A DNA stretch of 52,981 bases from Sphingopyxis sp. Its GTDB lineage: Bacteria > Pseudomonadota > Alphaproteobacteria > Sphingomonadales > Sphingomonadaceae. The DNA lies in NCBI RefSeq assembly GCF_016463645.1, contig NZ_JAEMQX010000013.1:1-52981 (forward strand), given 5' to 3'. Positions 6,498-52,895 of the stretch are shown piece after piece. The notes under the pieces were generated by a model. It searched no databases and had not been told where the DNA came from. It was given only the letters and a program-made list of their open reading frames with translations. Numbering within the stretch: position 1 is the first letter of the stretch; every line of letters starts with the position of its first letter. A program made the translations under genes and the position numbers.

Positions 6498-6513
6498 TCA
6501 GGCCGTTCGATCG

Positions 6514-15137: not shown

Positions 15138-15233
15138 GGGGATCCTCTTGTTCGGAGGCGGACCTGATCGGCCCGCTTGCGACCGGTGCCGGACGGCACT
15201 GTATCAACGGTTTAGGACAGTGCTTCCGGGCTT

Positions 15234-38583: not shown

Positions 38584-40296
38584 CTAATCGACGCTCGCAT
38601 GCGGCAATTGCGGTGTCTCGGCGCCGCCCCATATCTGGCGCGCACGCCCTTTGAGGTGCGGGTCATAGGAGTCGCTCCACATGTCCACATAGCTCGCCGC
38701 GGCCCACTCGTCCCACTGCCGTGCCATCTTGCGCACGCGGTCGGGCTGGCCGGCGGCAAGGTCGTGCATTTCGGTGCGATCGGTCGCCATGTCGAAGAGC
38801 TGCCACGGCTTCTGAAAACCGGCGACAAGCTTCCATTTGCCGTCCCGGACGGCACGGTTGCCTTCATGCTCCCAGAAGATCGGCTTGACGCGCGTCAGCG
38901 CCTCGCCATGAAAGGCGGGAACCATCGAGCGGCCCTCCATCGGCAGGATGGCGTGCCCGTTGAAGTTCCGGGGATAGGCGGCGCCGGCGAGTTCGACGAG
39001 CGTCGGCATGACGTCGATCAGATGCCCGGGCTCGCGCACGAGCGTTCCGCGCGCCTTCGCGGCGATGCCGCGGGGCCAATGCGCGATCAGCGGCGTCGCG
39101 ATTCCCCCCTCATAAGTGTGGTGCTTGTAATATTGGAAGGGCGCGTTCTGCAGCGTCGCCCAGTTCATTCCCGTCCAGACCACCGACTGCGCGCTGCCCG
39201 GAAGCCCCTCGCCCTTGAGCCGGCCATCGGGCCCGCTTTCAGCAGTGCCGCCATTATCGCTCATCAGCAGGATCAGCGTATTGTCGAGCTCGCCCGATTG
39301 CCGCAGCCGATCGACGAGCGTGCCGATCGCGCGATCGACGCGATGGATAACCGCTGCATAGACCGCCATCATCGTGTCGAAACGATCCTTGTCCCCGGCC
39401 GACAATTTGTTCCAGTCGTAACTGCCCGGCAACGCGGCAGGCAGCTCGGCGTCGGCGGCGATGATGCCGAGCTTCTTCTGCCGCTCGAACCGCTCGCGCC
39501 GGATGACCTCCCAGCCGCGCATGTACCGGCCCTTGAACTTCGCCACATCCCCGGGTGGCGCCATCAGCGGAAAATGCGCGCCGACGAAGGGCATGTAGAG
39601 GAAGAAGGGTTTGCGCTGTTCGCGCGCCTCGCCCACGAACTTCGTCTGCCAGTCGACGAACATGTCCGACGAATACCAGTTGCCCTTGCCGACACGCGGC
39701 GAGTTCGCCGGGACCCGCTCGCCGTCGATATAGACCGACTGCGCCAGCGGCTGGGGCTGATCGGGATAATAGAGTTCGCCCGAGGGCGAGGTCAGCGACC
39801 GGTCGAAACCGCGCTGCCAAGGGCCGACGCCGCGCGAGATACCGAGATGCCATTTGCCCGCCATCGCGGTGAAATAGCCCGCCGATTTCATCACCTCGGC
39901 AAGCGTGACGACCCGATCCGAAAGTTTGCTGTGCAGGCCTTTCGAACCCGGCACCTGAACCGATTCGAGGTGCCCCAGCCCCGCCTGATGCGGATAGGTG
40001 CCGGTCAGCAGCGACGCGCGCGACGGGCTGCACCGGGCATTATTGTAGAATTGGGTGAAAGCCAGCCCGTCGCGGGCAAGCGCATCGATATTCGGGGTCG
40101 GAATCTCGCCGCCGAAGGCGCCCATATCCGAAAAGCCGACATCGTCGAGCAGTATGACGACGACGTTGGGACGAACGGGTTGCGGGCGGGCCGGCGCTTC
40201 GGCTGCGGCCGCTGCGGAGGGCAGGATGCCTGCCGCGAGGGTGGCGAGAACACAGCTTGAATGGGTCAGCAGGCGGACGACGCGTTTGATATTCAC
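38584..40296 (-). CDS. Arylsulfatase-type sulfatase (S1 family, CSPSR), secreted
   Basis: The protein has 570 residues from a GTG at 40296, with AGGGAGAG before it. A signal peptide (about 1-32) targets it to the periplasm. PNVVVILLDDVGFSDMG supplies the calcium-binding aspartates. The formylglycine signature CSPSRASLLTG gives Cys89, the canonical C-x-P-S-R form needing conversion by a maturase. GKWHLG and LILLMSDNGG are further active-site motifs. It has a long insert (about 200-330) between them, as in larger arylsulfatases. It is the first gene of the glycan locus. Its start lies 38 bp from a copy of the AT-rich motif at 40334-40348. It is divergent from the TonB-dependent receptor gene. 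Confidence 0.93.
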   Translation of the reverse strand: MNIKRVVRLLTHSSCVLATLAAGILPSAAAAAEAPARPQPVRPNVVVILLDDVGFSDMGAFGGEIPTPNIDALARDGLAFTQFYNNARCSPSRASLLTGTYPHQAGLGHLESVQVPGSKGLHSKLSDRVVTLAEVMKSAGYFTAMAGKWHLGISRGVGPWQRGFDRSLTSPSGELYYPDQPQPLAQSVYIDGERVPANSPRVGKGNWYSSDMFVDWQTKFVGEAREQRKPFFLYMPFVGAHFPLMAPPGDVAKFKGRYMRGWEVIRRERFERQKKLGIIAADAELPAALPGSYDWNKLSAGDKDRFDTMMAVYAAVIHRVDRAIGTLVDRLRQSGELDNTLILLMSDNGGTAESGPDGRLKGEGLPGSAQSVVWTGMNWATLQNAPFQYYKHHTYEGGIATPLIAHWPRGIAAKARGTLVREPGHLIDVMPTLVELAGAAYPRNFNGHAILPMEGRSMVPAFHGEALTRVKPIFWEHEGNRAVRDGKWKLVAGFQKPWQLFDMATDRTEMHDLAAGQPDRVRKMARQWDEWAAASYVDMWSDSYDPHLKGRARQIWGGAETPQLPHASVD

Positions 40297-40333: not shown

Positions 40334-40348
40334 ATATATCATATATAT
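40334..40348 (-). promoter_or_regulatory. Candidate GntR operator, sulfatase/TonB-receptor divergent region
   Basis: On the minus strand the site reads ATATATATGATATAT. It is centred in a perfect dyad TATATA-TCA-TATATA (40333-40347). It matches the motif found at 46915, 48299 and 51313 and lies between the divergent sulfatase and receptor genes. Confidence 0.5.
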
Positions 40349-40534
40349 ATTGACTTTCTTTATCCGGTTGGTCAACGTCGCGATCGAGGCGTTGACGGGA
40401 AGGTACGAACAGCTGCTTGAAGTCAGGGTTTGCGGCCGTGCCCGGCACACCCCGATCTCCTCGCAGCCCCTCTCCTTCTCACCGGCGCCGCAAAGGCAAA
40501 AAATGCCTGAATGGGGACGTTGGGAGAGGACAGG

Positions 40535-43360
40535 ATGAAGAAGCAAACAGGCTTTGCGACCGCGGTATCGGTGCTCGCACTCATCGCGAGCGCGCCGGCA
40601 TGGGGACAATCCACCGACGCCGGGGAAGCTCCCGCAACCGGGACGATCGCCGACGCGCCACAGGGGGCCGACGATGCGATCGTCGTCACCGGCATCCGCC
40701 GTTCGCTCGAACGCGCCGCCGACATCAAGCGCGAGTCGGTGCAGGTGGTCGATGCGATCGTCGCGCAGGACATCGGCAAGCTTCCCGACCCGACGACCGC
40801 CGCCGCCTTGCAGCGCGTACCCGGCGTCCAAGTGTCGGTGAACCGCAACAACGAACTCGGTGACGTGCGCGTGCGCGGTCTTCCCGACGTGCTCACCACG
40901 GTCAACGGCCGCGAGGTGTTTTCGACGATCGGTCGCAACTTCGACCTGCAGGACATGCCCGCCGAGGCGCTCTCGCGCGTCAACGTCTTCAAGTCGCAGA
41001 CCGCCGAGCTGACCGAGGGCGGCCTTGCCGGGGTGATCGACCTGCAGCTCAACCGCCCGTTCAATTTCAAGGATCCGACCGTCGTTGCTGCCGCCCGCGC
41101 CAATTACGGCGACCGCGTCGACAAGATCAATCCGCAGTTCAGCCTGCTCGCGACCGATCGCTGGGATACGGGCATCGGCGAGATCGGCGCGCTGATCAAC
41201 GGCACCTATTCGAAATCCGACTATTACCGCGCGACGACCGTGCTGTTCCAGCGCCGTAGCACCAACACCGCGCCGTTCAACACGCCGGGTTATGTGATCC
41301 CCGGCATCCTGCAGAATTTCCCGCAACAGGGCTTCATCGAACGGCATCAGTTCAACGGCGCGCTGCAATGGCAGGCTTCGCCGTCGCTCGAGGTTTATGC
41401 CGAGGGCTTCTACACCTACTTCCGCGACCGGGGCAGCCGCAACGGCGCGAACATCCAGCCCTTTACCACCGGCACGACGATCACCGACGTCACCCCCGGC
41501 ACCAGCTGCATCAACACCTACGTCCGTTCGAACGGCAACAATCCGGTCATCCAGACCGACGCCGAGGGTGTAAAGTCGTGGACGCTGACCCCGGCGCAAC
41601 TGGCCAATCCGGTCGAGCTGTGCCAGCCCGAAAGCATGACCTTTGCCAATCTGGTGTCGAACCAGACGACGCAGGCGCGCGACCTCAACCAGCGCAACAA
41701 GCAGTTCGCCGGCGGGCTGAAATATGACGAGGGTCGGCTGAATGCGGTGCTCGACGTCGCCTATCAGACGTCGAAATATGAGTTGCAGAACATCACCTCG
41801 GACATCGGTCAGCGACTGCCCAGCCTGACCGTGACGATGGATAACGATGGCCACGCCGAATATACGGTTCCGGGCGATGCGCTGCTCAGCCGCGATGGCC
41901 TTTATATCCGCAACGCGCTGATCCAGAATTTCACCGAGAACCGCGGCAAGCTGTTCCAGGCGAAGGGCGACGTCGATTATGATCTCGACAGCTTCCTGTC
42001 GAATATCGCCGTCGGCGTCCGCTACGCGCACCGTTCGGCCGAGGAGCAATCGGTCAACCTGAACAAGGCGACGCCGGGCGGCAACATCGGCACCGGAAAC
42101 GATGCGGCGGCGGTGCTGGTTTCGGACACCGGCCTGCCCGACGATTTCCTCGCGCTCGGGTCGCGTGCGCCCGACCTCAACAATGGCTCCCGTTTCTATA
42201 TTCCCAACCCCGATTTCCTCCTCTCCGAAGATGGGCTCGACGCCGCGCGCGCCTATTTCGGACTGCCCGCGGGGCGGCCCGACTATGATCCCGGGCGCGC
42301 ATTCGACGCGAAGGAAGACACGCTCGCCGCCTATGTGCAGGGCAAATATGAAGCCGAGCTGTCGAACAGCATCACATTGGATGGCGTCGTCGGCGCGCGC
42401 TACATCCGCACCAGCCGCACGATCGGCACCAATGTGCCGGCGGGCGGCGGCACCTTCGACCGGCTGACGGCGAAAACCGTCGATCACGACTGGCTGCCCA
42501 ACGCAACCGCGCGTTTCCGGGTCGGAGACGATATCCAGATCCGCTTCGGCTACGCCAAGTCGCTGCGTCGCCCCAATTTCGCGTCGCTCAATCCGGCGAT
42601 TACGCTCAACCAGTCGAACAACCCGCTCGTCCAGAGCACGGGCAATGCCGGCAATCCCGACCTCAAGGCCCAGAAGTCCGAAAGCTTCGACGCGACCTTC
42701 GAATATTATTTTCCGAGCGGTTATATCGCGATCGCCGGCTATTACCGCGACATTACCGACCGCGTCATCACCAGCGGCGCGGTCGAGAACATCGACGGCG
42801 TCGACTATTCGGTATCGCGCCCGCGCAACGTCGGTCAGGCGACGCTGAAGGGCATCGAGCTCAGCACCCAATATTTCTTCGACTTCCTGCCCGGTGCGCT
42901 GTCGGGGCTCGGGGTGCAGGGCGCCTTCACGCTCGCCGATTCCAAGGTCGGGGGCGACGATACGCTCGCGGGTTATCCGCTGCAGGGCGTGTCGAAATAT
43001 AACTACACCGTCGGTCTTTTGTACGAAAAGAGCGGGGTCAGCGCACGGCTCGTATACACCTATCGCTCGAAATATCTGTCGCTCGACGCGAGCGGCGAGC
43101 CCACGCTGCGGCCCATGACCGAAGAGACGATCGCTTCGCTGGAGGTGCCGGCGCTCGTCACCTATGCGCGCGCAGCGGGCCGGCTCGACTTCAACATCGG
43201 CTACGACATCACCGACAGGATCCGCGTCGATGTCGGCGGCACCAACATCCTCGGCAGCAACACGTCAACCTATTACAATTATCCGGGATATACGAATATC
43301 AACAACGAGATGGCGTATGACGAGACGACTTGGTCGGCCGGCGTCCGCTTCAAATTCTGA
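40535..43360 (+). CDS. TonB-dependent receptor, Xanthomonas/Caulobacter type, glycan import candidate
   Basis: The protein has 941 residues from the ATG at 40535 (MKKQTGFATAV), after GGAGAGGACA. The upstream in-frame ATG is less likely. The signal peptide ends near AWGQ. The TonB box is DDAIVVTGIRRSL, then the plug has LPDPTTAAALQRVPGVQVSV, VRVRGLPDVLTTVNGRE and TEGGLAGVIDLQ. The barrel ends in VRFKF. The segment with IKRESVQVVDAIVAQDIGKL is characteristic of the TIGR01782 family, which is common in carbohydrate-uptake loci of sphingomonads, Caulobacter and Xanthomonas. It presumably transports oligosaccharides across the outer membrane. The gene is flanked by sulfatase genes on both sides. 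Confidence 0.93.
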   Translation: MKKQTGFATAVSVLALIASAPAWGQSTDAGEAPATGTIADAPQGADDAIVVTGIRRSLERAADIKRESVQVVDAIVAQDIGKLPDPTTAAALQRVPGVQVSVNRNNELGDVRVRGLPDVLTTVNGREVFSTIGRNFDLQDMPAEALSRVNVFKSQTAELTEGGLAGVIDLQLNRPFNFKDPTVVAAARANYGDRVDKINPQFSLLATDRWDTGIGEIGALINGTYSKSDYYRATTVLFQRRSTNTAPFNTPGYVIPGILQNFPQQGFIERHQFNGALQWQASPSLEVYAEGFYTYFRDRGSRNGANIQPFTTGTTITDVTPGTSCINTYVRSNGNNPVIQTDAEGVKSWTLTPAQLANPVELCQPESMTFANLVSNQTTQARDLNQRNKQFAGGLKYDEGRLNAVLDVAYQTSKYELQNITSDIGQRLPSLTVTMDNDGHAEYTVPGDALLSRDGLYIRNALIQNFTENRGKLFQAKGDVDYDLDSFLSNIAVGVRYAHRSAEEQSVNLNKATPGGNIGTGNDAAAVLVSDTGLPDDFLALGSRAPDLNNGSRFYIPNPDFLLSEDGLDAARAYFGLPAGRPDYDPGRAFDAKEDTLAAYVQGKYEAELSNSITLDGVVGARYIRTSRTIGTNVPAGGGTFDRLTAKTVDHDWLPNATARFRVGDDIQIRFGYAKSLRRPNFASLNPAITLNQSNNPLVQSTGNAGNPDLKAQKSESFDATFEYYFPSGYIAIAGYYRDITDRVITSGAVENIDGVDYSVSRPRNVGQATLKGIELSTQYFFDFLPGALSGLGVQGAFTLADSKVGGDDTLAGYPLQGVSKYNYTVGLLYEKSGVSARLVYTYRSKYLSLDASGEPTLRPMTEETIASLEVPALVTYARAAGRLDFNIGYDITDRIRVDVGGTNILGSNTSTYYNYPGYTNINNEMAYDETTWSAGVRFKF

Positions 43361-43374
43361 CGAAAAAGGGGGTG

Positions 43375-43400
43375 TCCCCGCCGCCTTCGCGCGGCGGGGA
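43375..43400. terminator. Hairpin terminator between TonB-receptor and sulfatase genes (convergent)
   Basis: TCCCCGCCGC (43375-43384), loop CTTCGC and GCGGCGGGGA (43391-43400) form a perfect 10-bp stem. On the minus strand a T-run follows after a CACCCCC spacer; on the plus strand only TATTT follows. It may serve both genes. Confidence 0.6.
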
Positions 43401-43404
43401 TATT

Positions 43405-44883
43405 TCAGCGGGTTCGATACTCGGGAAGCGCCGCCATCCAGGCCTTGAGCTTGCCGAGCAGCCGGTCGCGGACCGCAGGCTCGCTCGCCGCGAGGTCCCT
43501 GGCCTCGACGGGATCCTTCGCGAGATCGAAGAGCTGGGGCTTTTCACCGCCCGCTTCCGCGAGAAGTTTCCAGTCGCCTTCGCGGATCGCGAAGGGCGGC
43601 GCCTGATCGCGCTCCAGCGCGGGTTGCGGCGGCTCCTTTTCTGCGCCTTCCTTGCCATAGGCCCAATAAAGGTCGGGCCGCTGCGCGATCGCGTGTCCCT
43701 CGATCACCGGCGACAGGTCGACACCGTCGATGCCCGCCGGGGTTCGCGCGCCGGCGATACGCGCAAGCGTCGGGAGCAGATCGACGCCCTGCGCCACCGT
43801 CCGCTCGTCGCGATGCCCCGCCTTGGCATGGCCGCGCCAGTAGAGGATCAAGGGCTGGCGAATGCCGCCTTCGTAGAGGCTCCATTTGCGGCCGCGCAGA
43901 TTTTCGGTGCTGCCCGGCGCGACGTTGCCTTCCTTGTAATAGCGCTGCGCCGATGATGGACCGTTGTCGCTGGTGACGATGACGAGCGTATTGTCCATCT
44001 CGCCCATCTGGTCGAGCCGCTCGAACAGGCGGCCAAGCGTCTTGTCCATCTTGACCAGCGAAGCGAGCATCCGGTCGTCGTCGGAAGATGTGCCCTTGCC
44101 CATGACGTCGGACAGGCTTTCGTCGTCGGGTGCCCAAGGGTCGTGCATGTCGTTGAGCCAGAGGTTCACGAACCACGGCTTGTCCGCATGCTGCGCAACG
44201 AAATCGACCGCCATATTCGCATAGAGGCCGGTAAGGTTGGTCTTGAGCTCCCAGAAGCGCGGGCCCTCGCCAAGCTCGTCCGACTGCTGCGCGAGGAAAC
44301 GCTCCTCGTCGGAAACGAGAACGCGCGGGCCGAGCCCCTCGAAGGTCGTGAAGCTGTGGTCGAAGCCATAGGCGGTCGGCCAGGGCGCATCGCCGATGTC
44401 GCGCCCGCCGCCCAGATGCCATTTGCCGATATGCGCGGTTTCATATCCCGCACCCTTCAGCAGCCGCGCAATGTTGGGCAGCTTGGGGTCGAGCCAGTCG
44501 GCCTGCCCGATCGCCTTGTTATAAGCGCGGTCGCTGACATAGTTGATGAAGCCGACCTCGGCCGGAAAACGCCCGGTGAGCAACCCCGCGCGCGACGCCG
44601 AACAGATCGGCGCCGCGTCGTAGAATTGCGTCATCAGCACGCCTTCACGCGCGAGACGGTCGAGGTTCGGGGTCTGGACCTTTCGGTTCCCCATCACCGA
44701 CAAGTCACCGAAACCCATGTCGTCGACAAGCACGAACAGGATATTGGGCTTGCCCGCCGCCGTGGTCGGAGCGGGCCTGTCGGCCGCGGGAGCAGCCGCC
44801 GTCGTCACGGGCGCCGCAACGCCCATGAGCGCCGCGAACATGGTGGTCGCGGCCCAGCGGGCCATCGCGGTGCGTCGTGCCAT
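43405..44883 (-). CDS. S1-family sulfatase with CSASR active site, secreted
   Basis: The protein has 492 residues from the ATG at 44883, preceded by AAGGGGAAG. A signal peptide (about 1-32) is followed by PNILFVLVDDMGFGDLSVMG, the calcium site. The formylglycine motif is CSASRAGLLTG (Cys94), the C-x-A-S-R variant. HIGKWHLGGGRDIGD and VIVTSDNGPSS complete the site. The sequence is closely similar over its whole length to the sulfatase at 51372-52895, so the two are paralogues. It probably removes sulfate esters from imported oligosaccharides. It is the last gene of the MFS-GH2-sulfatase operon, 15 bp after GH2. Confidence 0.92.
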   Translation of the reverse strand: MARRTAMARWAATTMFAALMGVAAPVTTAAAPAADRPAPTTAAGKPNILFVLVDDMGFGDLSVMGNRKVQTPNLDRLAREGVLMTQFYDAAPICSASRAGLLTGRFPAEVGFINYVSDRAYNKAIGQADWLDPKLPNIARLLKGAGYETAHIGKWHLGGGRDIGDAPWPTAYGFDHSFTTFEGLGPRVLVSDEERFLAQQSDELGEGPRFWELKTNLTGLYANMAVDFVAQHADKPWFVNLWLNDMHDPWAPDDESLSDVMGKGTSSDDDRMLASLVKMDKTLGRLFERLDQMGEMDNTLVIVTSDNGPSSAQRYYKEGNVAPGSTENLRGRKWSLYEGGIRQPLILYWRGHAKAGHRDERTVAQGVDLLPTLARIAGARTPAGIDGVDLSPVIEGHAIAQRPDLYWAYGKEGAEKEPPQPALERDQAPPFAIREGDWKLLAEAGGEKPQLFDLAKDPVEARDLAASEPAVRDRLLGKLKAWMAALPEYRTR

Positions 44884-44898
44884 CGGTCTTCCCCTTGC

Positions 44899-46902
44899 CT
44901 ATTTATCCTCGAACAGCGGCTTGGCGATCTTCGCGAAATCCTCGACCGGCAGCTTCGATGCCGCGCGGTCATAGGTGAGGAGGCCGTTGAGTTCGCCCTC
45001 GACGTCGCTCGTTTCGGTATAGACCGATGCCGCGAGCCCCACTTCCTTCGCCTGGCGGATGATCTCGTCGAACTTGATCTTGTAACGGCGGCGATAATCT
45101 TCCTTGTCGGTCGCGAACTGATAGATGCGCGCGTCGCGATCGGTGAACCAGAGGTGCCCGGGGATCGGCAGACCCACGCCGCCGAACTCGCCGGTCACGA
45201 TCGGCCGATCGGCCTGCGGTTCGGGGACCAGCGGCACCTCGTCATAGGTGTGGATGTCATAGACGTCCGACCCGCTGCCGGGCACGTCGAACCAGCCGCT
45301 CGCATTGTTCACCAGCCGGCTCGGGTCCATATTCTTGGCGATGGCACCGACGGTCTTCACATCATACTGGCCCCAGCCCTCGTTGTTCGTCACCCACATC
45401 ACGATCGACGGGAAGGCGCGGAGCGCGCCGATCATCCGCGCCAGCTCGGCCTGATATTGCGCCATGCCGCCCGAGGTGAAGGTCGCCTCGCGGTCGCTGG
45501 GTCGCCGCACCGCCTGATCGCCGAACGCGCCCGAGGGCATATCCTGCCAGATCAGGATGCCGAGGCGGTCGGCGTCGTGATAATATTGCGCGGGCTCGAC
45601 CTTGATATGCTTGCGAAGCATGTTGAAGCCGGCCTTTTTCAGGAAAACGATATCGCTGCGCGCGGCTTCCTCCGAAGGCGGGGTCAGCAGGCTTTCGGGC
45701 CACCAACCCTGGTCGAGCGTGCCGTTGTGGAAGAGCGGCTTGTTGTTGAGCAGCAGCGCCATCTTGCCGGTCTTGGGATCGATGCCGGTCGAGATCTTGC
45801 GCATGCCGAAATAGCTTTTGACGCTGTCGCTGGGCGCCCCGGTGACCGTCGCGGCGGCATAGGCCTGCGCCTCGCGCCCGGTCATCGGCGGCAACCCGGT
45901 GCGATCATTGCCCGCACCCGTTGGCGGCGTCACCTTCACCAGTTCGGCGGTGAGGTCGTAAAGATAGGGATCGTCGGGCGACCAGAGCCGCGCGTTCGGA
46001 ATCTTGAGCACGCCCTGCCGGTTGCCGCGGATGATCGTGCTCGCGACCAGTTTGCCCTTGTCGCGCGCAGTGATGCGCACGGCATCGCTCGGCGTCGCGG
46101 TATTGCTGAGCGCGACATCGACGGTCAGCTCGCCCTTGTCGATATCGGGCACCGCGCGCAGGTCGGCAATGTGGAGGTCGGCGACGGGCTCGAGCCACAC
46201 CGTCTGCCAGATGCCGCTGACCGCGGTGTACCAGATCCCGCGCGGTTCGAGCGTCTGCTTGCCCCGCGGCTGGTCGCCGGTCGAGGTCGGGTCGGTGACC
46301 TGCACGACGAGTTCGTTCGCCCCCGCACGCAGATAGCGGGTGACGTCGAAGCTGAACGGGTCGGAGCCGCCCTTGTGGCTGCCGACGACCACGCCGTTGA
46401 CGAGCACGGTCGATTCGAAATCGACCGCGCCGAAGTGAAGCAAAGTGCGCTGGCCCGGCCATTTCGCGGGCAGGGTGAAGCTGCGCTTGTACCAGAGCCG
46501 GTCGTCGGGCATCAGCTTGCGCGCGACGCCCGACAGCTTCGATTCGACCGCGAAGGGGACGAGGATCTTGCCGTCCATCGCCGCGGGCTGCGGCTCGTTC
46601 GCGGGGCGAATCGCGTAATCCCAATGCCCGTTGAGGTTCATCCACGTGTCGCGTTCCATCTGTGGGCGCGGATAGCTGCGCCACGCGTTCTCAGGAGTCA
46701 CCTTGCGGCCCCACTCGGTCATGATCGGGCCGACATAGGCAGGCCCGCCCTCGGTGCTGCCCGGCGTGGTATAGCCTGCGGTGTTGGCGGTCGAATTGGC
46801 GGGCTTCTTGGGCGGCGGCGCGGCGGTCTGCGCATAGGCCGCAACGCTGGCGCTCCCCGCCAAAAGCGCGGCAACCACGAGCAGCTTCGAAACAGACTTC
46901 AT
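44899..46902 (-). CDS. Glycoside hydrolase family 2 enzyme, secreted
   Basis: The protein has 667 residues. A signal peptide ends near AYAQ. The sugar-binding jelly-roll domain starts near residue 90 (WMNLNGHWDYAI) and an immunoglobulin-like domain follows. The TIM barrel carries the acid/base Glu508 (MWVTNNEGWGQ) and nucleophile Glu572 (VTGEFGG), so it should be an active retaining glycosidase. GH2 includes beta-galactosidases, beta-glucuronidases and beta-mannosidases, and the specificity cannot be read. An insert near residues 325-355 (rich in Gly, Pro and Thr) is unusual. The start is preceded by GGGAGG. A motif copy lies within the 32-bp gap to the MFS gene. It is probably cotranscribed with the MFS gene and the following sulfatase. 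Confidence 0.93.
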   Translation of the reverse strand: MKSVSKLLVVAALLAGSASVAAYAQTAAPPPKKPANSTANTAGYTTPGSTEGGPAYVGPIMTEWGRKVTPENAWRSYPRPQMERDTWMNLNGHWDYAIRPANEPQPAAMDGKILVPFAVESKLSGVARKLMPDDRLWYKRSFTLPAKWPGQRTLLHFGAVDFESTVLVNGVVVGSHKGGSDPFSFDVTRYLRAGANELVVQVTDPTSTGDQPRGKQTLEPRGIWYTAVSGIWQTVWLEPVADLHIADLRAVPDIDKGELTVDVALSNTATPSDAVRITARDKGKLVASTIIRGNRQGVLKIPNARLWSPDDPYLYDLTAELVKVTPPTGAGNDRTGLPPMTGREAQAYAAATVTGAPSDSVKSYFGMRKISTGIDPKTGKMALLLNNKPLFHNGTLDQGWWPESLLTPPSEEAARSDIVFLKKAGFNMLRKHIKVEPAQYYHDADRLGILIWQDMPSGAFGDQAVRRPSDREATFTSGGMAQYQAELARMIGALRAFPSIVMWVTNNEGWGQYDVKTVGAIAKNMDPSRLVNNASGWFDVPGSGSDVYDIHTYDEVPLVPEPQADRPIVTGEFGGVGLPIPGHLWFTDRDARIYQFATDKEDYRRRYKIKFDEIIRQAKEVGLAASVYTETSDVEGELNGLLTYDRAASKLPVEDFAKIAKPLFEDK

Positions 46903-46914
46903 CGGACCCTCCCA

Positions 46915-46929
46915 ATTTATATGATCAAT
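46915..46929 (-). promoter_or_regulatory. Weaker copy of the AT-rich motif in the MFS/GH2 gap
   Basis: ATTTATATGATCAAT on the plus strand matches the consensus at all but one or two positions. It sits in the 32-bp gap just before the GH2 Shine-Dalgarno sequence. It may be an operator, an internal promoter element or a chance AT-rich match. Confidence 0.35.
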
Positions 46930-46934
46930 GTGTT

Positions 46935-48239
46935 TTATAAAGAGTCGCTGGATGTGGCAACCGGAAATCTGTCGCGACCTGCGCGCGGAATATGGCGTTC
47001 GATCAGAAAGATCGCGGTCGCCGAAAAAGCGAGCATCGCGGCGAGGAAGATCATCGGCGCCAGATCGCTGCCCGTCGCATCATGGATTTTCGGTACGATC
47101 GCCTGCGCGACGAATCCGCCGAGATTGCCGACCGAATTGATCGCCGCAAAGCCCGCCGCCGCCGCTGCGCCGGTCAGGAAGCGCCCCGGGAGTACCCAGA
47201 AAAAGGGCTGGCCGGCAAAGATCGCTGCGGCGGCGATGCATAGCGCGGTGAACTGCAGCGCGGGCGACGGCAGCGCCGCGGCCAGCATCAGGCTGAAGGC
47301 GCCGACCAGCGCGGGCCCCACCATGAAGCGCCGCGACCCGGCGCTGCGCGCCGCGAGACGCGGGAGCCACCACAAGGCGGCTGCTACCGCGAGCCAGGGG
47401 ATGATATTGAGCAGGCCGTTCGTCGCATCGCTCACGCCGAAACCGCGAACGATCGTCGGGAGCCAGTAGCTGAGCCCATAAGCCGAGAGCGGAAAGCCGA
47501 GAAAGGCGACGCAGAGCAGCAACACGCGAAGATCGCCAAGCGCGCGCAACGGATTGGCATGTTCGCGCGTGCCGCCCTCTTCGGCGAGGGTTGCCGCGAG
47601 CCACGCCTTTTGATCGTCGCTCAACCAGCGCGCCTCGGCCGGCCCCCGCGGCAGGCGCGCGAGCACGACGGGGACGAGCAGCAGCGCCGGGATCGCGGTG
47701 ACGATGAACACCCACTGCCATCCGCGCAGGCCGGCGGTGCCGTCGAGTTCGAGCAGCAGCCCGCCGAGCGCCGCGCCCACCGCATTTGCGAACGCGCTGG
47801 CGATCAGGAACAGCCCGATCGCCCGCGCGCGCTCCGCCTGCGGGAACCACAGGGTGAGCAGATAGAGAACGCCGGGGAAGAAGCCCGCCTCGGCCACCCC
47901 GAGCAGGAAGCGGAGGATGTAGAAGCTGGTCGGCGTCCACGCAAAGCCGAGGGCGAGCGTCACAAGACCCCACGCCCCGATGATCCGCGCGAACCACAGC
48001 CGCGGGCCGACGCGATCGAGGATCAGGTTGCTGGGAATCTCGAAGAGGCAATAGCCGAGGAAGAACAGCGCCGACCCCAATCCATAGGCGGCTTCGCTGA
48101 GGCCGAGGTCGCCGACCATCTGGAGTTTGGCATAAGCGACATTCTGCCGGTCGATATAGGCGACCAGATAGAGCAGGCAGAGAAGCGGCATCAGCCGCCA
48201 GGTTATGCGCCGCACCGTCGCCGCGCCGATGTTGTTCAT
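46935..48239 (-). CDS. MFS transporter, anion:cation symporter (ACS) family
   Basis: The protein has 434 residues and 12 helices. TM1 carries LYLVAYIDRQNVAYAKLQM, and TM2-3 LFFLGYCLFEIPSNLILDRVG, the signature of the ACS family (hexuronate, tartrate, galactonate and glucarate carriers). In TM4-5, LLGVAEAGFFPGVLYLLTLWF is typical as well. It is expected to import an acidic sugar or sugar acid with protons across the inner membrane. GGAGAGG precedes the ATG at 48239. It is the first gene of a three-gene operon (MFS, GH2, sulfatase). The motif copy at 48299 lies 59 bp upstream, shared with the divergent glycosidase operon. Confidence 0.92.
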   Translation of the reverse strand: MNNIGAATVRRITWRLMPLLCLLYLVAYIDRQNVAYAKLQMVGDLGLSEAAYGLGSALFFLGYCLFEIPSNLILDRVGPRLWFARIIGAWGLVTLALGFAWTPTSFYILRFLLGVAEAGFFPGVLYLLTLWFPQAERARAIGLFLIASAFANAVGAALGGLLLELDGTAGLRGWQWVFIVTAIPALLLVPVVLARLPRGPAEARWLSDDQKAWLAATLAEEGGTREHANPLRALGDLRVLLLCVAFLGFPLSAYGLSYWLPTIVRGFGVSDATNGLLNIIPWLAVAAALWWLPRLAARSAGSRRFMVGPALVGAFSLMLAAALPSPALQFTALCIAAAAIFAGQPFFWVLPGRFLTGAAAAAGFAAINSVGNLGGFVAQAIVPKIHDATGSDLAPMIFLAAMLAFSATAIFLIERHIPRAGRDRFPVATSSDSL

Positions 48240-48298
48240 ATCCGCCTCTCCCCGTCGCCGAATTGCGGGCCGTCGAGGCGGTTGGCCGCCTTCAAATT

Positions 48299-48313
48299 AA
48301 TTATACGATATAT
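48299..48313 (+). promoter_or_regulatory. Candidate GntR operator, MFS/GH5-like divergent region
   Basis: AATTATACGATATAT lies in an AT-rich island between the MFS and GH5-like genes. It differs from the 51313 site by only a few bases and is the best-conserved pair with it. Confidence 0.55.
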
Positions 48314-48414
48314 ATGCTTCCTATCGAGGCGAATCGAATCTATCAAGGTGCATCGGTTGTGACGCGGGGGCGGACCGAACTCCCGCCAGAGACACCAGAA
48401 GAGGGAGAAGAGAG

Positions 48415-49566
48415 ATGATCCGCCGGAGCTTCCTGCTCACCGCCGCCGCTTTCACCATCGCTGCCACCGCCGCCCAGCCCGCCATGGCGCGCGAGCAGTG
48501 GACGAAGGAACAGGCGAACAAATGGTACGACAAACAGCCGTGGCTGATCGGTGCCAACTATAATCCCGGCTCGGCAGTGAACGAGCTCGAAATGTGGCAT
48601 GAACCCACCTTCGACCCCGCGACGATCGACAAGGAGCTCGGCTGGGCGGCAGGCATCGGCATGAACACGATGCGCGTCTTCCTGCACAATCTGCTGTGGG
48701 AAAACGACCCCGAGGGCACGAAAAAGCGGATGAACGAATTTCTCGCCATCGCCGACAAGCACAAGATCAAGATCATGTTCGTGCTGTTCGACAGCGTATG
48801 GGATCCGAATCCGGTCTATGGCCTGCAAAGCCCGCCGATCCCCGGCGTCCACAATTCGCGCTGGGTGCAGGCGCCGGGCGAGGCGCGGCTGAAGGACGCG
48901 AGCCAGTACGGCAAGCTCGAAGGCTATGTGAAGGACATCGTCGGCACCTTCGCCAATGATCCGCGCATCATCGCGTGGGACGTGTGGAACGAACCGAACA
49001 ACAAGGGCGGCGGCAATTACGAGCACATTCCCGACAAGAATAAATATGTCGCGCTGCTGCTGCCGCAGGTCTTCGAATGGGCGCGCAGCGCGAACCCCAG
49101 CCAGCCGCTGACCTCCGGTGTCTGGATCGGGCAGGATTGGGACAATCTGGACAAGGTCGATGCGGTCGAGCGGACGCAGCTGACCCAGTCGGACATCAAC
49201 AGTTTTCACGATTACAGCTGGCCCGAAACGTTCGAAAAGCGCGCGAAGCAGATGCTGAGCTATGGTCGCCCGGTGCTGTGCACGGAATATATGGCGCGCG
49301 GCAACGGATCGACCTTCGACGGCTCGCTGCCGCTCGGCAAGAAATATAACATCGGCATGTACAATTGGGGTTTCGCCGACGGCAAGACGCAGACGCGCCT
49401 GCCGTGGGACAGCTGGAAAAAGCCCTACACCTATGACGAACCGACGATCTGGTTCCACGAGGTCTTCCGCGCCGACGGCAAGCCCTATCGCCAGGCCGAG
49501 GTCGACCTGATCAAGCGCCTTGCCGCCGCGCCCAAGGGCGTGGTCCCGATGGCGAACGCCAAGTGA
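48415..49566 (+). CDS. Clan GH-A glycoside hydrolase, GH5-like, secreted
   Basis: The protein has 383 residues with a signal peptide (about 1-25). WLIGANYNPGSAVNELEMW and IGMNTMRVFLHNLLWENDPE begin a (beta/alpha)8 barrel. The acid/base is Glu193 (WDVWNEPNN) and the nucleophile Glu291 (VLCTEYMARG), as in retaining clan GH-A enzymes. The family is usually annotated as cellulase- or 1,4-beta-xylanase-like, but the activity is not established to my knowledge, so no substrate is claimed. The closing part has YNWGFADGKTQTRLPWDSW. It precedes the GH43 gene, with stop and start overlapping (TGATG). GAGGGAGAAGAG lies before the start. Confidence 0.88.
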   Translation: MIRRSFLLTAAAFTIAATAAQPAMAREQWTKEQANKWYDKQPWLIGANYNPGSAVNELEMWHEPTFDPATIDKELGWAAGIGMNTMRVFLHNLLWENDPEGTKKRMNEFLAIADKHKIKIMFVLFDSVWDPNPVYGLQSPPIPGVHNSRWVQAPGEARLKDASQYGKLEGYVKDIVGTFANDPRIIAWDVWNEPNNKGGGNYEHIPDKNKYVALLLPQVFEWARSANPSQPLTSGVWIGQDWDNLDKVDAVERTQLTQSDINSFHDYSWPETFEKRAKQMLSYGRPVLCTEYMARGNGSTFDGSLPLGKKYNIGMYNWGFADGKTQTRLPWDSWKKPYTYDEPTIWFHEVFRADGKPYRQAEVDLIKRLAAAPKGVVPMANAK

Positions 49567-50501
49567 TGCGGCGGCCGGCGCGCCCTGCCCTCCTCTCCAT
49601 GCTGCTCGTCAGCGTGGCGGCGGTGGCGGCGGAGGCGCCGGCCCCGCTTTCGTTCGACGGCGCCGATCCCGATATCGAGGCGGCGAACGGGCGCTATTAT
49701 ATCTATCCGACCAATTCGGGCGGGACGGGGCAACTGCACGTCTGGACCTCGTCCGACCGGCGCCACTGGCAAAAGGGCGCCGAACTGATCCGGCTCGACC
49801 GGATCGGCTGGATCGGCGACGACGGCGCGCCGCGCCATGCGCTGTGGGCCCCCGACATGGTCGCGGCGAACGGTCGTCATTATCTCTATTTCTCGGTCGG
49901 CCCGCAAAATCCGACGCCGAGCCGGATCGGGGTCGCGACCTGCGTCGGTCTCGAAGGACCGTGCACCGACAGCGGCAAACCGCTGATCACCGGCGGCAAC
50001 GGGTTCGAGGCGATCGACCCCGCGGTCTTCGTCGACCCCGCGAGCAAGACACCTTACCTCTATGCTGGCGGCAGTGCGGGCGCGAAGCTGCGTACCTGGG
50101 TGCTCAAACCCGACATGGTGACGATCGACCGCGAAATACCGGTCGAAACGCCGCCCCATTTCACCGAAGGCGCGTTCATGCACGAACGCGGCGGGACTTA
50201 TTATCTGTCCTATTCGTCGGGCAGCTATCGCCACGACAGCTATCAGGTGCATTATGCGACCGCGCCCTCGCCGACCGGCCCATGGACCTGGCGCGGCAAG
50301 GTCGTCGAGAGCGACGCGCGCTTCAAGGGCCCCGGCCACCATGCCTTCCTTCACGATCCCGCCGATGGCCGCTGGTATATCGCCTATCACCGCTGGGAAG
50401 GACAGACCGGCCCCGGCCCGTACAAGGGCAGCCGCAAATTCACCGTGCAGCCGATCGCCTATCGCGCCGACGGCACAATCGTCCCGCTGGAGATGCGCTA
50501 G
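49566..50501 (+). CDS. Glycoside hydrolase family 43 enzyme, secreted
   Basis: The protein has 311 residues from the ATG at 49566. An in-frame GTG at 49563 is possible but less likely. A signal peptide (about 1-22) precedes the five-bladed propeller. GADPDIEAANGRYYIY gives the general base Asp34, AIDPAVFVD the pKa-modulating Asp151 and PPHFTEGAF the acid Glu201. GPGHHAFLHD carries the calcium-coordinating or conserved histidine pair. It is a single-domain GH43, so it probably acts on a side chain (arabinose, xylose or galactose). It is coupled to the GH5-like gene and ends 1 bp from the stop codon of the convergent GntR gene. Confidence 0.92.
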   Translation: MRRPARPALLSMLLVSVAAVAAEAPAPLSFDGADPDIEAANGRYYIYPTNSGGTGQLHVWTSSDRRHWQKGAELIRLDRIGWIGDDGAPRHALWAPDMVAANGRHYLYFSVGPQNPTPSRIGVATCVGLEGPCTDSGKPLITGGNGFEAIDPAVFVDPASKTPYLYAGGSAGAKLRTWVLKPDMVTIDREIPVETPPHFTEGAFMHERGGTYYLSYSSGSYRHDSYQVHYATAPSPTGPWTWRGKVVESDARFKGPGHHAFLHDPADGRWYIAYHRWEGQTGPGPYKGSRKFTVQPIAYRADGTIVPLEMR

Positions 50502-50502
50502 G

Positions 50503-51234
50503 CTATTTCTCCGCGTCGTCGATCAGCGTCAGCACATCGCCGATCAGGTGGCGCATCGCACTCCGCGCCGCATCGGGGTCGTGCGCCGCGATCGCGTCGC
50601 GAACCGCGGCATGGTCGGCGACGCTCGCGCTGCGCCCCTTGATCCGGTTCGTGAAGCGGATCGAGGTTCTGAGCGCGGTGCTGACGACATCACGAAACTG
50701 CGCATAGAACGGATTGTTGGACGCGCGCAGCACGGCGACATGAAAGGCGATGTCGGCCTCCAGCGTATCGTCCTCGCCGCGCTCGGCCGCCGCCATGCGG
50801 TCGAGCCCGTCGCCGATGCGTTTCAGTTCCTCCGGCCGCCCGAACTGCGCCGCGAGCGCCGCCGCCTCGGGTTCGATCGCAACGCGGAGCTGGTTGAACT
50901 GCTTGAGCAGCTCGATCGAAAATTGCCGCTCGAGCAGCCAGCGCAGCACGTCGGTATCGAACAGGTTCCACGACGACGTCGGCTGCACCACCGTTCCCTG
51001 CCGCGGCCGCGCGCTGAGCAATCCCTTGGCGGTCAGCATCTTCACCGCCTCGCGCGTCACCGACCGGCTGACGCCATGGCGCTTGGTCAGTTCGGCCTCG
51101 GTCGGGAAGGCTTCTTCGTCGAACTGGCCGGTGACGATCGCGCGCCCGAGACTGTCGAGCAGGCCATAGGTCAGGTTGCGCCCGAGCGAAGCCGGTGCAT
51201 CGTCATGATCCAGTCCCGATTGTTCCAACGACAC
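50503..51234 (-). CDS. GntR family transcriptional regulator, FadR/FCD type
   Basis: 243 residues from a GTG at 51234, fixed by AAGGAGG (51249-51243) 8 nt before it. The winged HTH (about 22-90) contains EAFPTEAELTKRHGVSRSVT and ARPRQGTVV. The FCD ligand-binding domain (about 100-235) has RVAIEPEAAALAAQFGRP, ADIAFHVAVLRASNNPFY and ADHAAVRDAIAAHDPDAARS, with Asp and His positions typical of metal-binding FCD domains. It should repress catabolic genes and be released by a sugar-acid-like effector. As the only regulator of the locus it is the best candidate binder for the AT-rich motif. It is divergent from the 51372 sulfatase. Confidence 0.93.
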   Translation of the reverse strand: MSLEQSGLDHDDAPASLGRNLTYGLLDSLGRAIVTGQFDEEAFPTEAELTKRHGVSRSVTREAVKMLTAKGLLSARPRQGTVVQPTSSWNLFDTDVLRWLLERQFSIELLKQFNQLRVAIEPEAAALAAQFGRPEELKRIGDGLDRMAAAERGEDDTLEADIAFHVAVLRASNNPFYAQFRDVVSTALRTSIRFTNRIKGRSASVADHAAVRDAIAAHDPDAARSAMRHLIGDVLTLIDDAEK

Positions 51235-51242
51235 GGCGATCG

Positions 51243-51249
51243 CCTCCTT
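51243..51249 (-). promoter_or_regulatory. Shine-Dalgarno sequence that decides the GntR GTG start
   Basis: AAGGAGG on the minus strand, 8 nt before GTG 51234. Confidence 0.75.
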
Positions 51250-51312
51250 ATGCGCGGCCGCAAACCGGCCCTCACGCCAATGGTAAGCCCAACAGAAAAC
51301 TAGACAAGCCTA

Positions 51313-51327
51313 ATTAATACGATAAAT
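51313..51327 (+). promoter_or_regulatory. Candidate GntR operator, gntR/sulfatase divergent region
   Basis: ATTAATACGATAAAT lies in the intergenic region, 79 bp before the GntR start and 45 bp before the sulfatase start. It could allow autoregulation as well as control of the sulfatase. Confidence 0.55.
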
Positions 51328-51371: not shown

Positions 51372-52895
51372 ATGTTCGATCGGCCATCCACCGCCCCGAT
51401 GTCAGCCGCCTTGAAGCGGCGCGGCCCGCTCGGCGCTCCCGCCAGCTGGCGTTTTTTCGCGACGGCGGCGATGGGTTTGGCGGCGATCGCGACCGTGCCC
51501 TCGACGGCGGTCCTGGCGCAGACATCGTCCCGCGCGCCCGAGGCCGCCCGGCAGGCCGAACGCCGGCCCAACATCCTCTTCATCCTCGTCGACGACATGG
51601 GCTTCGGCGACCTGTCGGTGATGGGGAACCGGAAGGTGCAGACACCGAACCTCGACCGGCTGGCGAAGGAAGGCGTGCTGCTCACCAAATTCTATGACGC
51701 GGCGCCGATCTGTTCCTCTTCGCGCGCCGGTTTCCTCACCGGGCGCTTCCCGGCGGACGTCGGCTTCGTCGGCATCACCGCAGCGCGCGCGCGCAATGCC
51801 GAAATCGGGCAGGTCGACTGGCTCGATCCCAAGCTGCCTACGATCGCGCGCCTGCTTCAGCAAAATGGTTACAAGACCGCGCATATCGGGAAATGGCATC
51901 TGGGCGGCGGGCGCGACGTCGGCGATGCGCCGTGGCCGACCGCTTATGGCTTCGACAAGAGTTTCACGACCTTCGAGGGGCTCGGCCCGCGCGTGCTCGT
52001 CTCGGACGAGGAGCGCTTCCTTGCGCAGCAGTCGGACAAGCTTGGCCAAGGCCCACGCTTCTGGGAACTCAAGACCAACCTTACCGGACTTTACGCCGAC
52101 ATGACGGTCGATTTCGTCGCGCAGAATTCGGACAAGCCGTGGTTCGTGAACCTCTGGCTCAACGACATCCATGATCCCTGGGCACCCGACGACGAAAGCC
52201 TCTCGGACGTCATGGGCAAGGGTGCATCGTCCGACGACGACCGGATGCTCGCCTCGCTGGTCAAGATGGACAAGACGCTCGGCCGCCTGATCGACCGCCT
52301 CGACCAGATGGGCGAAATGGACAACACGCTGGTCATCTTCACATCAGACAACGGCCCCTCGTCGCTCGCGCGCTATCACGAACGCGGGGAAACCGCGCCC
52401 GGGAGCACCGAAGGACTGCGAGGGCGCAAGCTCAGCCTCTACGAAGGCGGCATCCGCCAGCCGCTGATCATGCACTGGCGCGGCCATATGACAGCGGGGA
52501 CGCGCGACGAGCGGACGGTGGCACAGGGTGTCGACCTGTTGCCGACCTTGGCCAGCATCATCGGCGCGAAAATTCCTGCGGGCAGCGCAGGGATCGATCT
52601 GTCGCCGGCGCTGAAGGGGCAGCCCGTCACCGGGCGACCCGACCTGTTCTGGGCTTATGGCAAGGAAGGCCGACCCATGCTGGGCAAGCCGAGCCAGCCC
52701 ATCGACGTATCGCCGCGCTTCGCGGTGCGCGAGGGCGACTGGAAACTGCTCGCGAACGACGGCGGCGCCGATGTGGAGCTTTATGACCTTGCGCGCGATC
52801 CGCTAGAAAAGCGGGATCTGGCGGCAAGCGAGCCCGAAGTGCGCGGACGGTTGCTCGCCAAGCTCAGGAAATGGCTTGCCCAGCTGCCAAAATGA
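51372..52895 (+). CDS. S1-family sulfatase with unusual CSSSR active-site motif, secreted
   Basis: 507 residues from the ATG at 51372, preceded by GGGAGAG. The N-terminal hydrophobic segment (about 28-48, ending VLAQ) is a signal peptide after an unusually long charged start. PNILFILVDDMGFGDLSVMG is the calcium site. The formylglycine motif reads CSSSRAGFLTG (Cys114); Ser takes the place of the usual Pro/Ala, a deviation from C-x-P/A-x-R. HIGKWHLGGGRDVGD and VIFTSDNGPSS are intact. It is closely similar to the CSASR sulfatase at 43405-44883. It may be active if the local maturase accepts Ser. It is divergent from gntR, with a motif copy upstream. Confidence 0.9.
   Translation: MFDRPSTAPMSAALKRRGPLGAPASWRFFATAAMGLAAIATVPSTAVLAQTSSRAPEAARQAERRPNILFILVDDMGFGDLSVMGNRKVQTPNLDRLAKEGVLLTKFYDAAPICSSSRAGFLTGRFPADVGFVGITAARARNAEIGQVDWLDPKLPTIARLLQQNGYKTAHIGKWHLGGGRDVGDAPWPTAYGFDKSFTTFEGLGPRVLVSDEERFLAQQSDKLGQGPRFWELKTNLTGLYADMTVDFVAQNSDKPWFVNLWLNDIHDPWAPDDESLSDVMGKGASSDDDRMLASLVKMDKTLGRLIDRLDQMGEMDNTLVIFTSDNGPSSLARYHERGETAPGSTEGLRGRKLSLYEGGIRQPLIMHWRGHMTAGTRDERTVAQGVDLLPTLASIIGAKIPAGSAGIDLSPALKGQPVTGRPDLFWAYGKEGRPMLGKPSQPIDVSPRFAVREGDWKLLANDGGADVELYDLARDPLEKRDLAASEPEVRGRLLAKLRKWLAQLPK

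Follow-up and report, generated by a model that had tools for sequence, protein, structure and literature searches.

A conserved palindrome as predicted operator of a DgoR-like GntR/FCD regulator proposed to link a sulfated-glycan locus with galactose oxidation in Sphingopyxis

Introduction

Operators of the FadR subfamily of GntR regulators follow the skeleton GTM-N0-1-KAC in AT-rich flanks, and an Arg at position 28 of the helix-turn-helix (HTH) has been linked with the G at that operator place (PMC4494728); statements on published systems refer, here and below, to the available parts of the papers cited. DgoR of E. coli, a GntR/FadR-family repressor of D-galactonate use, has an operator, IR1, that reads TTGTA-N-TACAA (PMC12288454), and the computed DgoR regulon of Halomonas, the nearest precedent within the literature searched, comprises De Ley-Doudoroff genes together with a sugar lactone lactonase and, as the predicted galactose transporter, a symporter of the SSS family (PMC5507952, which also describes steps of that route). 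BioR of alphaproteobacteria, also of the FadR subfamily, controls biotin genes through TTATMKATAA (PMC4494728), and NanR of E. coli, a GntR/FCD protein of sugar-acid use, binds GGTATA repeats (PMC8012715). Here we analyse a stretch of 52,981 nucleotides from Sphingopyxis sp. (assembly GCF_016463645.1, contig NZ_JAEMQX010000013.1, positions 1 to 52,981; the whole stretch is called the window and its contig C106), in which four copies of a 15-bp palindrome, ATTTATM-N-KATAAAT, stand among the genes of a glycan locus that also encodes a DgoR-like GntR/FCD regulator.

The four sites are, in our judgement, very probably operators of this regulator and/or of its paralogue on contig C144 of the same genome, and would couple the breakdown of a sulfated glycan to the oxidation of galactose. 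The predicted control of a glycan locus, TonB receptors and sulfatases included, sets the regulator apart from DgoR, and the available part of the Halomonas account, with which the comparison is one of gene content, mentions none of these. In the literature covered, a search on GntR-controlled use of galactose and glycans by sphingomonads gave no account of this regulon, RegPrecise and most subscription papers lying outside its scope. A motif spotted by eye is thereby turned into a testable regulon, and its list of sites can serve as a finder of co-regulated genes of unknown function.

A palindrome shared by the window and orthologous loci

Eighty loci around regulator orthologues, out of 292 stretches encoding a relative, made up the locus set. 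From their 661 intergenic regions, 105 convergent ones and the redundant ones were left out, which gave 412 non-redundant, non-convergent regions (100,468 bases) as input for motif discovery, with the window and C144 excluded. A zero-or-one-occurrence expectation-maximisation search, started from 250 random seeds of which the best 14 were refined, returned as its best result the palindrome ATTTATmnkATwwAT, with about 135 sites and 21.6 bits; the same palindrome appeared, in shifted frames, in 13 of the 14 refined runs, and the fourteenth gave a weak CTCnCC-like pattern. Across the 80 loci, 178 places score at least 18 and 169 of these are intergenic; reversed sequence gives 17 such places, 16 of which are intergenic. 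A consensus taken from the window only was run over 75 other loci, five near relatives being left out, and was found with at most one mismatch at 62 places in 35 loci (60 intergenic; reversed pattern, 0) and with at most two at 135 places in 60 loci (128 intergenic; reversed pattern, 10). An exact pattern, ATWWATMNKATWWAT, matched 31 of 199 genomes, with many of its matches in a few genomes that also had control matches, and was replaced.

In the window, operators 1 to 4 (Table 1) reach 25.3, 24.1, 22.8 and 25.0 on the symmetrised matrix, and the next-best place scores 14.5. The consensus drawn by eye in a preliminary description of the window matches them with 1, 1, 1 and 0 mismatches, and when up to 3 mismatches are allowed it occurs six times in the window, whereas shuffled sequence gives a mean of 0.41 and a maximum of 3, none of 100 shuffles reaching six; of the two extra matches, one overlaps site 1 and one is unrelated, at 12425. 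The four sites are therefore not a product of chance. Three of them separate divergent genes, minus strand first (38584-40296 and the TonB receptor; 46935-48239 and 48415-49566; 50503-51234 and 51372-52895), and operator 2 falls between the two minus-strand genes 46935-48239 and 44899-46902, where it may mark an internal promoter of this gene run.

The preliminary description had located the four sequences exactly (40348-40334, 46915-46929, 48299-48313 and 51313-51327), and the gene map agrees with its assignment of three of them to divergent intergenic regions and of the 46915 copy to a gap of 32 bp. Its remark that this copy is weaker does not hold, since the copy scores 24.1, above the 22.8 of that at 48299, and the strand that it assigned to each copy means little because the motif is a 15-bp palindrome. 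The islands of low G+C content that it noted are real, with 0.43-0.52 at the sites (100-bp windows) and mostly 0.55-0.75 in the surroundings.

These dips, and the overlap of two sites with promoter-like matches, speak for a reading of the sites as -10 regions, AT-rich promoter elements whose likeness is one of composition; at operator 3, indeed, the overlapping element is the -10-like TATAAT of a minus-strand match. We consider this reading scarcely credible. In 2.7 Mb of sequence simulated by a Markov model from the dinucleotide composition of the 60-bp flanks, the sites themselves excluded, a single place scores 22 or more, and the matches are confined to one cluster rather than standing at promoters genome-wide. 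Moreover, conservation at two of the three sites open to comparison clearly exceeds that of the remaining intergenic region: 15 of 15 columns of operator 4 are invariant among three relatives, against 54% for the rest, and 14 of 15 columns of operator 3, against 61%. The third, operator 2, is invariant in 15 of 15 columns in L031-L033, where the rest of its short gap is 94% invariant, and the region of operator 1 did not align with relatives.

Association with the regulator clade

An upstream site was counted where a place scoring at least 15 lies within 420 bases upstream of the regulator gene, and 129 of 131 regulator rows were tabulated, two having been dropped for short or identical upstream sequence. 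On this count, made with a matrix trained on many of the loci tested, the site precedes 86 of 98 regulator orthologues with at least 67% identity, whereas after shuffling (best of 20) a score of 15 is attained for 4 of these 98, and it precedes 4 of 31 remoter homologues (L020, at 67% after rounding, was counted in the 48-57% group). In 19 further orthologue genomes, a strict pattern finds 26 distinct places (29 strand matches; control, 11), and 13 of the 26, from 8 of these genomes, are no further than about 10 kb from the regulator, where 0.13 would be expected. Among the sister regulators (48-57% identity), which offer few sequences, no motif passed a simple regular-expression search.

This close tracking of the regulator clade bears on whether another transcription factor might bind the motif at the same genes, the regulator gene being a mere target. 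Contig C56 of the same genome, with another FCD/GntR gene, a TonB receptor and weaker site-like sequences, and a LuxR-type gene beside a C144 site, could be taken in favour of such a factor; yet the motif follows this clade, and its core ATM-N-KAT shows the symmetry and spacing of FadR-subfamily operators (PMC4494728), and we hold the involvement of such a factor to be very improbable.

Two regulator copies of Sphingomonas aracearum (L068 and L073), each 83% identical to that of the window, have no upstream site (0.2 and -1.4). In Steroidobacteraceae (Gammaproteobacteria; an assignment checked for two of the four loci L074, L077, L106 and L110), regulators 72-77% identical to that of the window come with the same motif, an occurrence that suggests a transfer of regulator and motif between classes.

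Distribution in the genome of the window

The 4.55-Mb genome has 11 places that fit the palindromic pattern with no more than one mismatch, ten of them on C106 and C144 and one on C56. C106 and C144 make up 96,598 bases, or 2.1% of the assembly, and carry both regulator paralogues (C106:50506-51234 and C144:11304-12017), which are 77% identical. With two mismatches the pattern has 59 places against 39 for the reversed control, so that outside the cluster it is near background. The eye-drawn consensus gives 12 strand matches with at most two mismatches, against 7 for its reversed control, and five with at most one, namely the four sites of the window and C144:25267.

Over its full length, C144 has seven sites scoring at least 19, at 6508, 11203, 15954, 22512, 23716, 25267 and 29949. 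In Sphingopyxis sp. JAI108, Sphingopyxis sp. LC363 and S. italica, the stretches that correspond to the end of C106 and to the start of C144 are neighbours, about 50 bases apart. The genome of the window, too, therefore probably has all 11 sites in a single cluster of about 43 kb. The C144 sites flank genes for an SSF symporter, the second regulator, a dehydratase, a dehydrogenase, sulfatases and TonB receptors, and genes for a lactonase, an epimerase, DgoK and a phosphogalactonate aldolase follow in the same gene runs.

Neither a scatter over random AT-rich sites nor an absence from orthologous loci, both of which the preliminary description had named as refuting outcomes, is what the counts give, and its proposal of the motif as a candidate operator of the locus regulator gains computational support. 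The regulon of the glycan locus that it envisaged does include the glycan genes but was drawn too narrowly, seven more sites lying on C144 and a galactose-oxidation module belonging to the predicted set.

Predicted regulon and sensed sugar

Genes facing intergenic sites that score at least 17 were collected from 82 sources (the 80 loci, the window and L111, which lies on C144); the counts include close relatives and hence are not independent. In 73 of these sources, 185 sites have 291 facing genes, whose main clusters are the regulator itself (63), the SSF symporter (44), a Gfo/Idh/MocA dehydrogenase (34), an IlvD/EDD dehydratase (33) and the TonB receptor (23), followed by a weakly GH43-like group (11), DgoK (10), sulfatases (9) and aldose epimerase (9), and by smaller clusters of GH43 (6), GH5-like (5) and MFS (4) proteins, two GH2 groups (4 and 4) and an aminotransferase group (4). 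Six of 13 distal sites were inspected in three other genomes: five stand before genes for LacZ-type GH2 enzymes (two), GH35, GH95 and a TonB receptor, and the sixth has no called gene facing it.

The regulon dehydrogenase matches L-arabinose and D-galactose 1-dehydrogenases, the lactonase is of the SMP-30 type, and the aldolase scores above the cut-off of the 2-dehydro-3-deoxy-6-phosphogalactonate aldolase model. The theme of the predicted regulon is galactose and its De Ley-Doudoroff route, with dehydrogenase, lactonase, dehydratase, DgoK and aldolase. As in the DgoR system of E. coli, dgoK- and dgoA-type genes belong to the predicted gene set, and a lactonase and a symporter are common to this set and the Halomonas regulon.

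The operators may be rightly assigned and the sensed sugar nevertheless derive from L-arabinose instead of galactose. The top relatives of the dehydrogenase are L-arabinose 1-dehydrogenases, with D-galactose 1-dehydrogenase next, GH43 enzymes are present, and the L-arabinonate dehydratase model matches, although under its cut-off; DgoK and phosphogalactonate aldolase, on the other hand, catalyse steps of galactonate use, and beta-galactosidase families lie behind the distal sites, which leaves an arabinose-derived signal rather unlikely in our estimate.

The distance from site to gene start is broad, with a median of 78 bp and a 5th-95th percentile range of 12-172 bp, as might suit a regulator that activates at these sites rather than represses. 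Members of the GntR/FadR family that regulate by sugar acids are usually repressors, however (PMC12288454), and a -10-like element is overlapped by operator 3, and activation seems to us distinctly improbable.

The regulator and its operator class

A FadR/FCD-type GntR regulator had been recognised in the locus by the preliminary description, and its GntR winged helix and FCD domain both score above cut-off (Table 1), which places it in the FadR subfamily. It is 33% identical to E. coli DgoR over 218 amino acids (aa), and DgoR is also its nearest solved relative by sequence (7c7e, E 1.2e-29). NanR is its best NCBIfam match, at 82.9 bits against a cut-off of 260, and the palindrome found here differs from the repeats of NanR. 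The metal ligands D146, H150 and H195 of DgoR, as well as R102, correspond to D161, H165, H208 and R117, which are invariant in a 10-row alignment; of the residues of the galactonate pocket, taken from PMC7674646, T191 is Ser in the window regulator, and the pocket region aligns with a gap.

Set against the FadR skeleton in its form GTM-N-KAC, the motif is alike in the M and K positions, the palindrome and the single central base, and differs in that the canonical GT is replaced by AT in 226 of 268 half-sites (GT in 39, AG in 3), and 4 of 134 sites carry GT in each half. Likewise, TTATM-N-KATAA has the spacing of DgoR IR1 with mostly AT for its GT (PMC12288454), and sequences of the DgoR type occur once (WTTGTMNKACAAW) and six times (WTTATMNKATAAW) in the 412 regions. 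BioR shares the AT-type half-sites TTATM and KATAA, but its operator is without a central base (PMC4494728), whereas the motif here has a free one.

At HTH position 28 (FadR R35), assigned by the spacing of conserved Glu and Arg in Table 1 of PMC4494728 rather than by alignment with FadR, none of the 131 regulator rows has Arg, and 114 have Ala. Loss of this Arg is ruled out as a sufficient cause of the exchange of GT for AT, because E. coli DgoR also has Ala at this position and yet GT in IR1. An AT half-site in a protein that, as DgoR, is without Arg at this position offers a clean case for the study of specificity shifts in the FadR subfamily. The window and C144 paralogues have the same recognition helix, SRSVTREAVKML, and the same wing core, ARPRQGT, and are therefore predicted probably both to read all 11 sites.

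Proposed model

The motif, its conservation, its tie to the regulator clade and the genes that it precedes are results of computation, and from them we infer a scheme of binding, dimer geometry, repression, effector and substrate. A dimer of the regulator would bind ATTTATM-N-KATAAAT near the starts of its target genes and would repress them, its own gene included (autoregulation), until an effector arrives. This effector would be a galactose-derived sugar acid, galactonate itself or a closely related compound, for instance arabinonate or 2-keto-3-deoxygalactonate, and would sit in the FCD pocket, which probably contains a metal. Release of the operators would then permit the capture and breakdown of a sulfated galactose-containing, and probably arabinose-containing, glycan by TonB receptors, sulfatases, GH2, GH43 and GH5-like enzymes, the uptake of sugars by the SSF symporter and the MFS transporter, and oxidation along the De Ley-Doudoroff route by epimerase, dehydrogenase, lactonase, dehydratase, DgoK and aldolase. 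The sensed sugar would in turn suggest the substrate class of this sphingomonad glycan locus, a sulfated galactose-containing glycan. In a wider version, whose chances we regard as evenly balanced, a DgoR-type repressor with its code shifted from GT/AC to AT/AT and with a second copy is the master switch over 11 operators in about 43 kb that wires a sulfated-galactan locus to galactose oxidation, regulator and sites having spread as a unit between classes.

Several observations weigh against the assignment of the sites to this regulator or against parts of the scheme. Twelve of the 98 close orthologues have no upstream site scoring at least 15 in 420 bp, and among the 18 loci outside the training set (L003-L020 without L009, plus L111), some of whose genomes may be near training species, only 11 pass. 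No strict match near the regulator is seen in 11 of the 19 regulator-bearing genomes, and the strict pattern is present in 70 of 179 genomes without an orthologue as well as in 14 of 20 with one, so that a lone match is not diagnostic. With the looser palindromic pattern, the reversed control gives 6 places genome-wide at no more than one mismatch. Promoter-like matches are few, two in the four site regions, and AT-rich operators mimic -10 boxes. Off-theme single targets occur among the facing genes, for example PepSY, MatE, SBP_bac_5 and an aminotransferase. Finally, Q173, R179, W181, D184, S221 and R224 of the DgoR pocket are L, F, a gap, R, V and L in the window regulator, and because these six residues are not kept, the effector need not be D-galactonate.

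Genes of the locus and further observations

The features of the locus are listed in Table 1. For the TonB receptor, the start at 40535 is preferred because a ribosome-binding-site-like stretch precedes it. The sulfatases at 43405-44883 and 51372-52895 are read as a duplication within the locus, and the GH5-like enzyme matches no PDB sequence at E 0.001.

Table 1. Genes and predicted operators of the glycan locus in the window. Gene calls are from a codon-usage caller and are approximate.
Feature	Position	Strand	Basis or context
Sulfatase, 570 aa	38584..40296	-	PF00884
Operator 1 (predicted), palindrome ATATATCATATATAT	40334..40348	.	interval between sulfatase 38584-40296 (-) and TonB receptor (+)
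TonB-dependent receptor	40535..43360	+	TonB-Xanth-Caul model above cut-off; frame taken from 40511
Sulfatase, 492 aa	43405..44883	-	73% identity to sulfatase at 51372
Glycoside hydrolase family 2 (GH2), 667 aa	44899..46902	-	preceded by operator 2
Operator 2 (predicted), ATTTATATGATCAAT	46915..46929	.	32-bp gap ahead of GH2 gene in minus-strand gene run
MFS transporter	46935..48239	-	closest NCBIfam models HpaX and D-galactonate transporter, both under cut-off
Operator 3 (predicted), AATTATACGATATAT	48299..48313	.	divergent interval between MFS transporter (-) and GH5-like enzyme (+)
GH5-like enzyme, 383 aa	48415..49566	+	weak Pfam match
Glycoside hydrolase family 43 (arabinofuranosidase/xylosidase relatives)	49563..50501	+	between GH5-like enzyme (+) and regulator gene (-)
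GntR/FCD regulator, FadR subfamily, DgoR-like, 243 aa	50503..51234	-	PF00392 41.9 bits (cut-off 27), PF07729 86 bits (cut-off 24.3)
Operator 4 (predicted), ATTAATACGATAAAT	51313..51327	.	interval between regulator gene (-) and sulfatase (+), autoregulatory position
Sulfatase, 507 aa	51372..52895	+	73% identity to sulfatase at 43405

Elsewhere in the genome, the LuxR-type regulator gene (L157:3199-3852, on C144) lies on the far side of the C144:29949 site. On C56, the weaker site-like sequences at L155:1658 and 2558 score 14.6 and 19.7 and stand beside the other GntR/FCD gene and a TonB receptor, and this gene perhaps encodes a related regulator with a related operator. The predicted fold of a regulon protein that has no Pfam match is poor, with a mean predicted local distance difference test (pLDDT) of 48.7 from a single sequence.

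Two 76%-identical paralogues on C144 (L111:11765-12874 and 14551-15675) are encoded in gene runs behind predicted operators. Neither has a Pfam match at 1e-5, the second has no PDB sequence match, and relatives of the second occur in 3 of 196 genomes of the order, its own included. Their GNEP and VTEF stretches, picked out by eye, we take to resemble those of clan GH-A enzymes, and the pair may possibly form a new glycoside hydrolase family.

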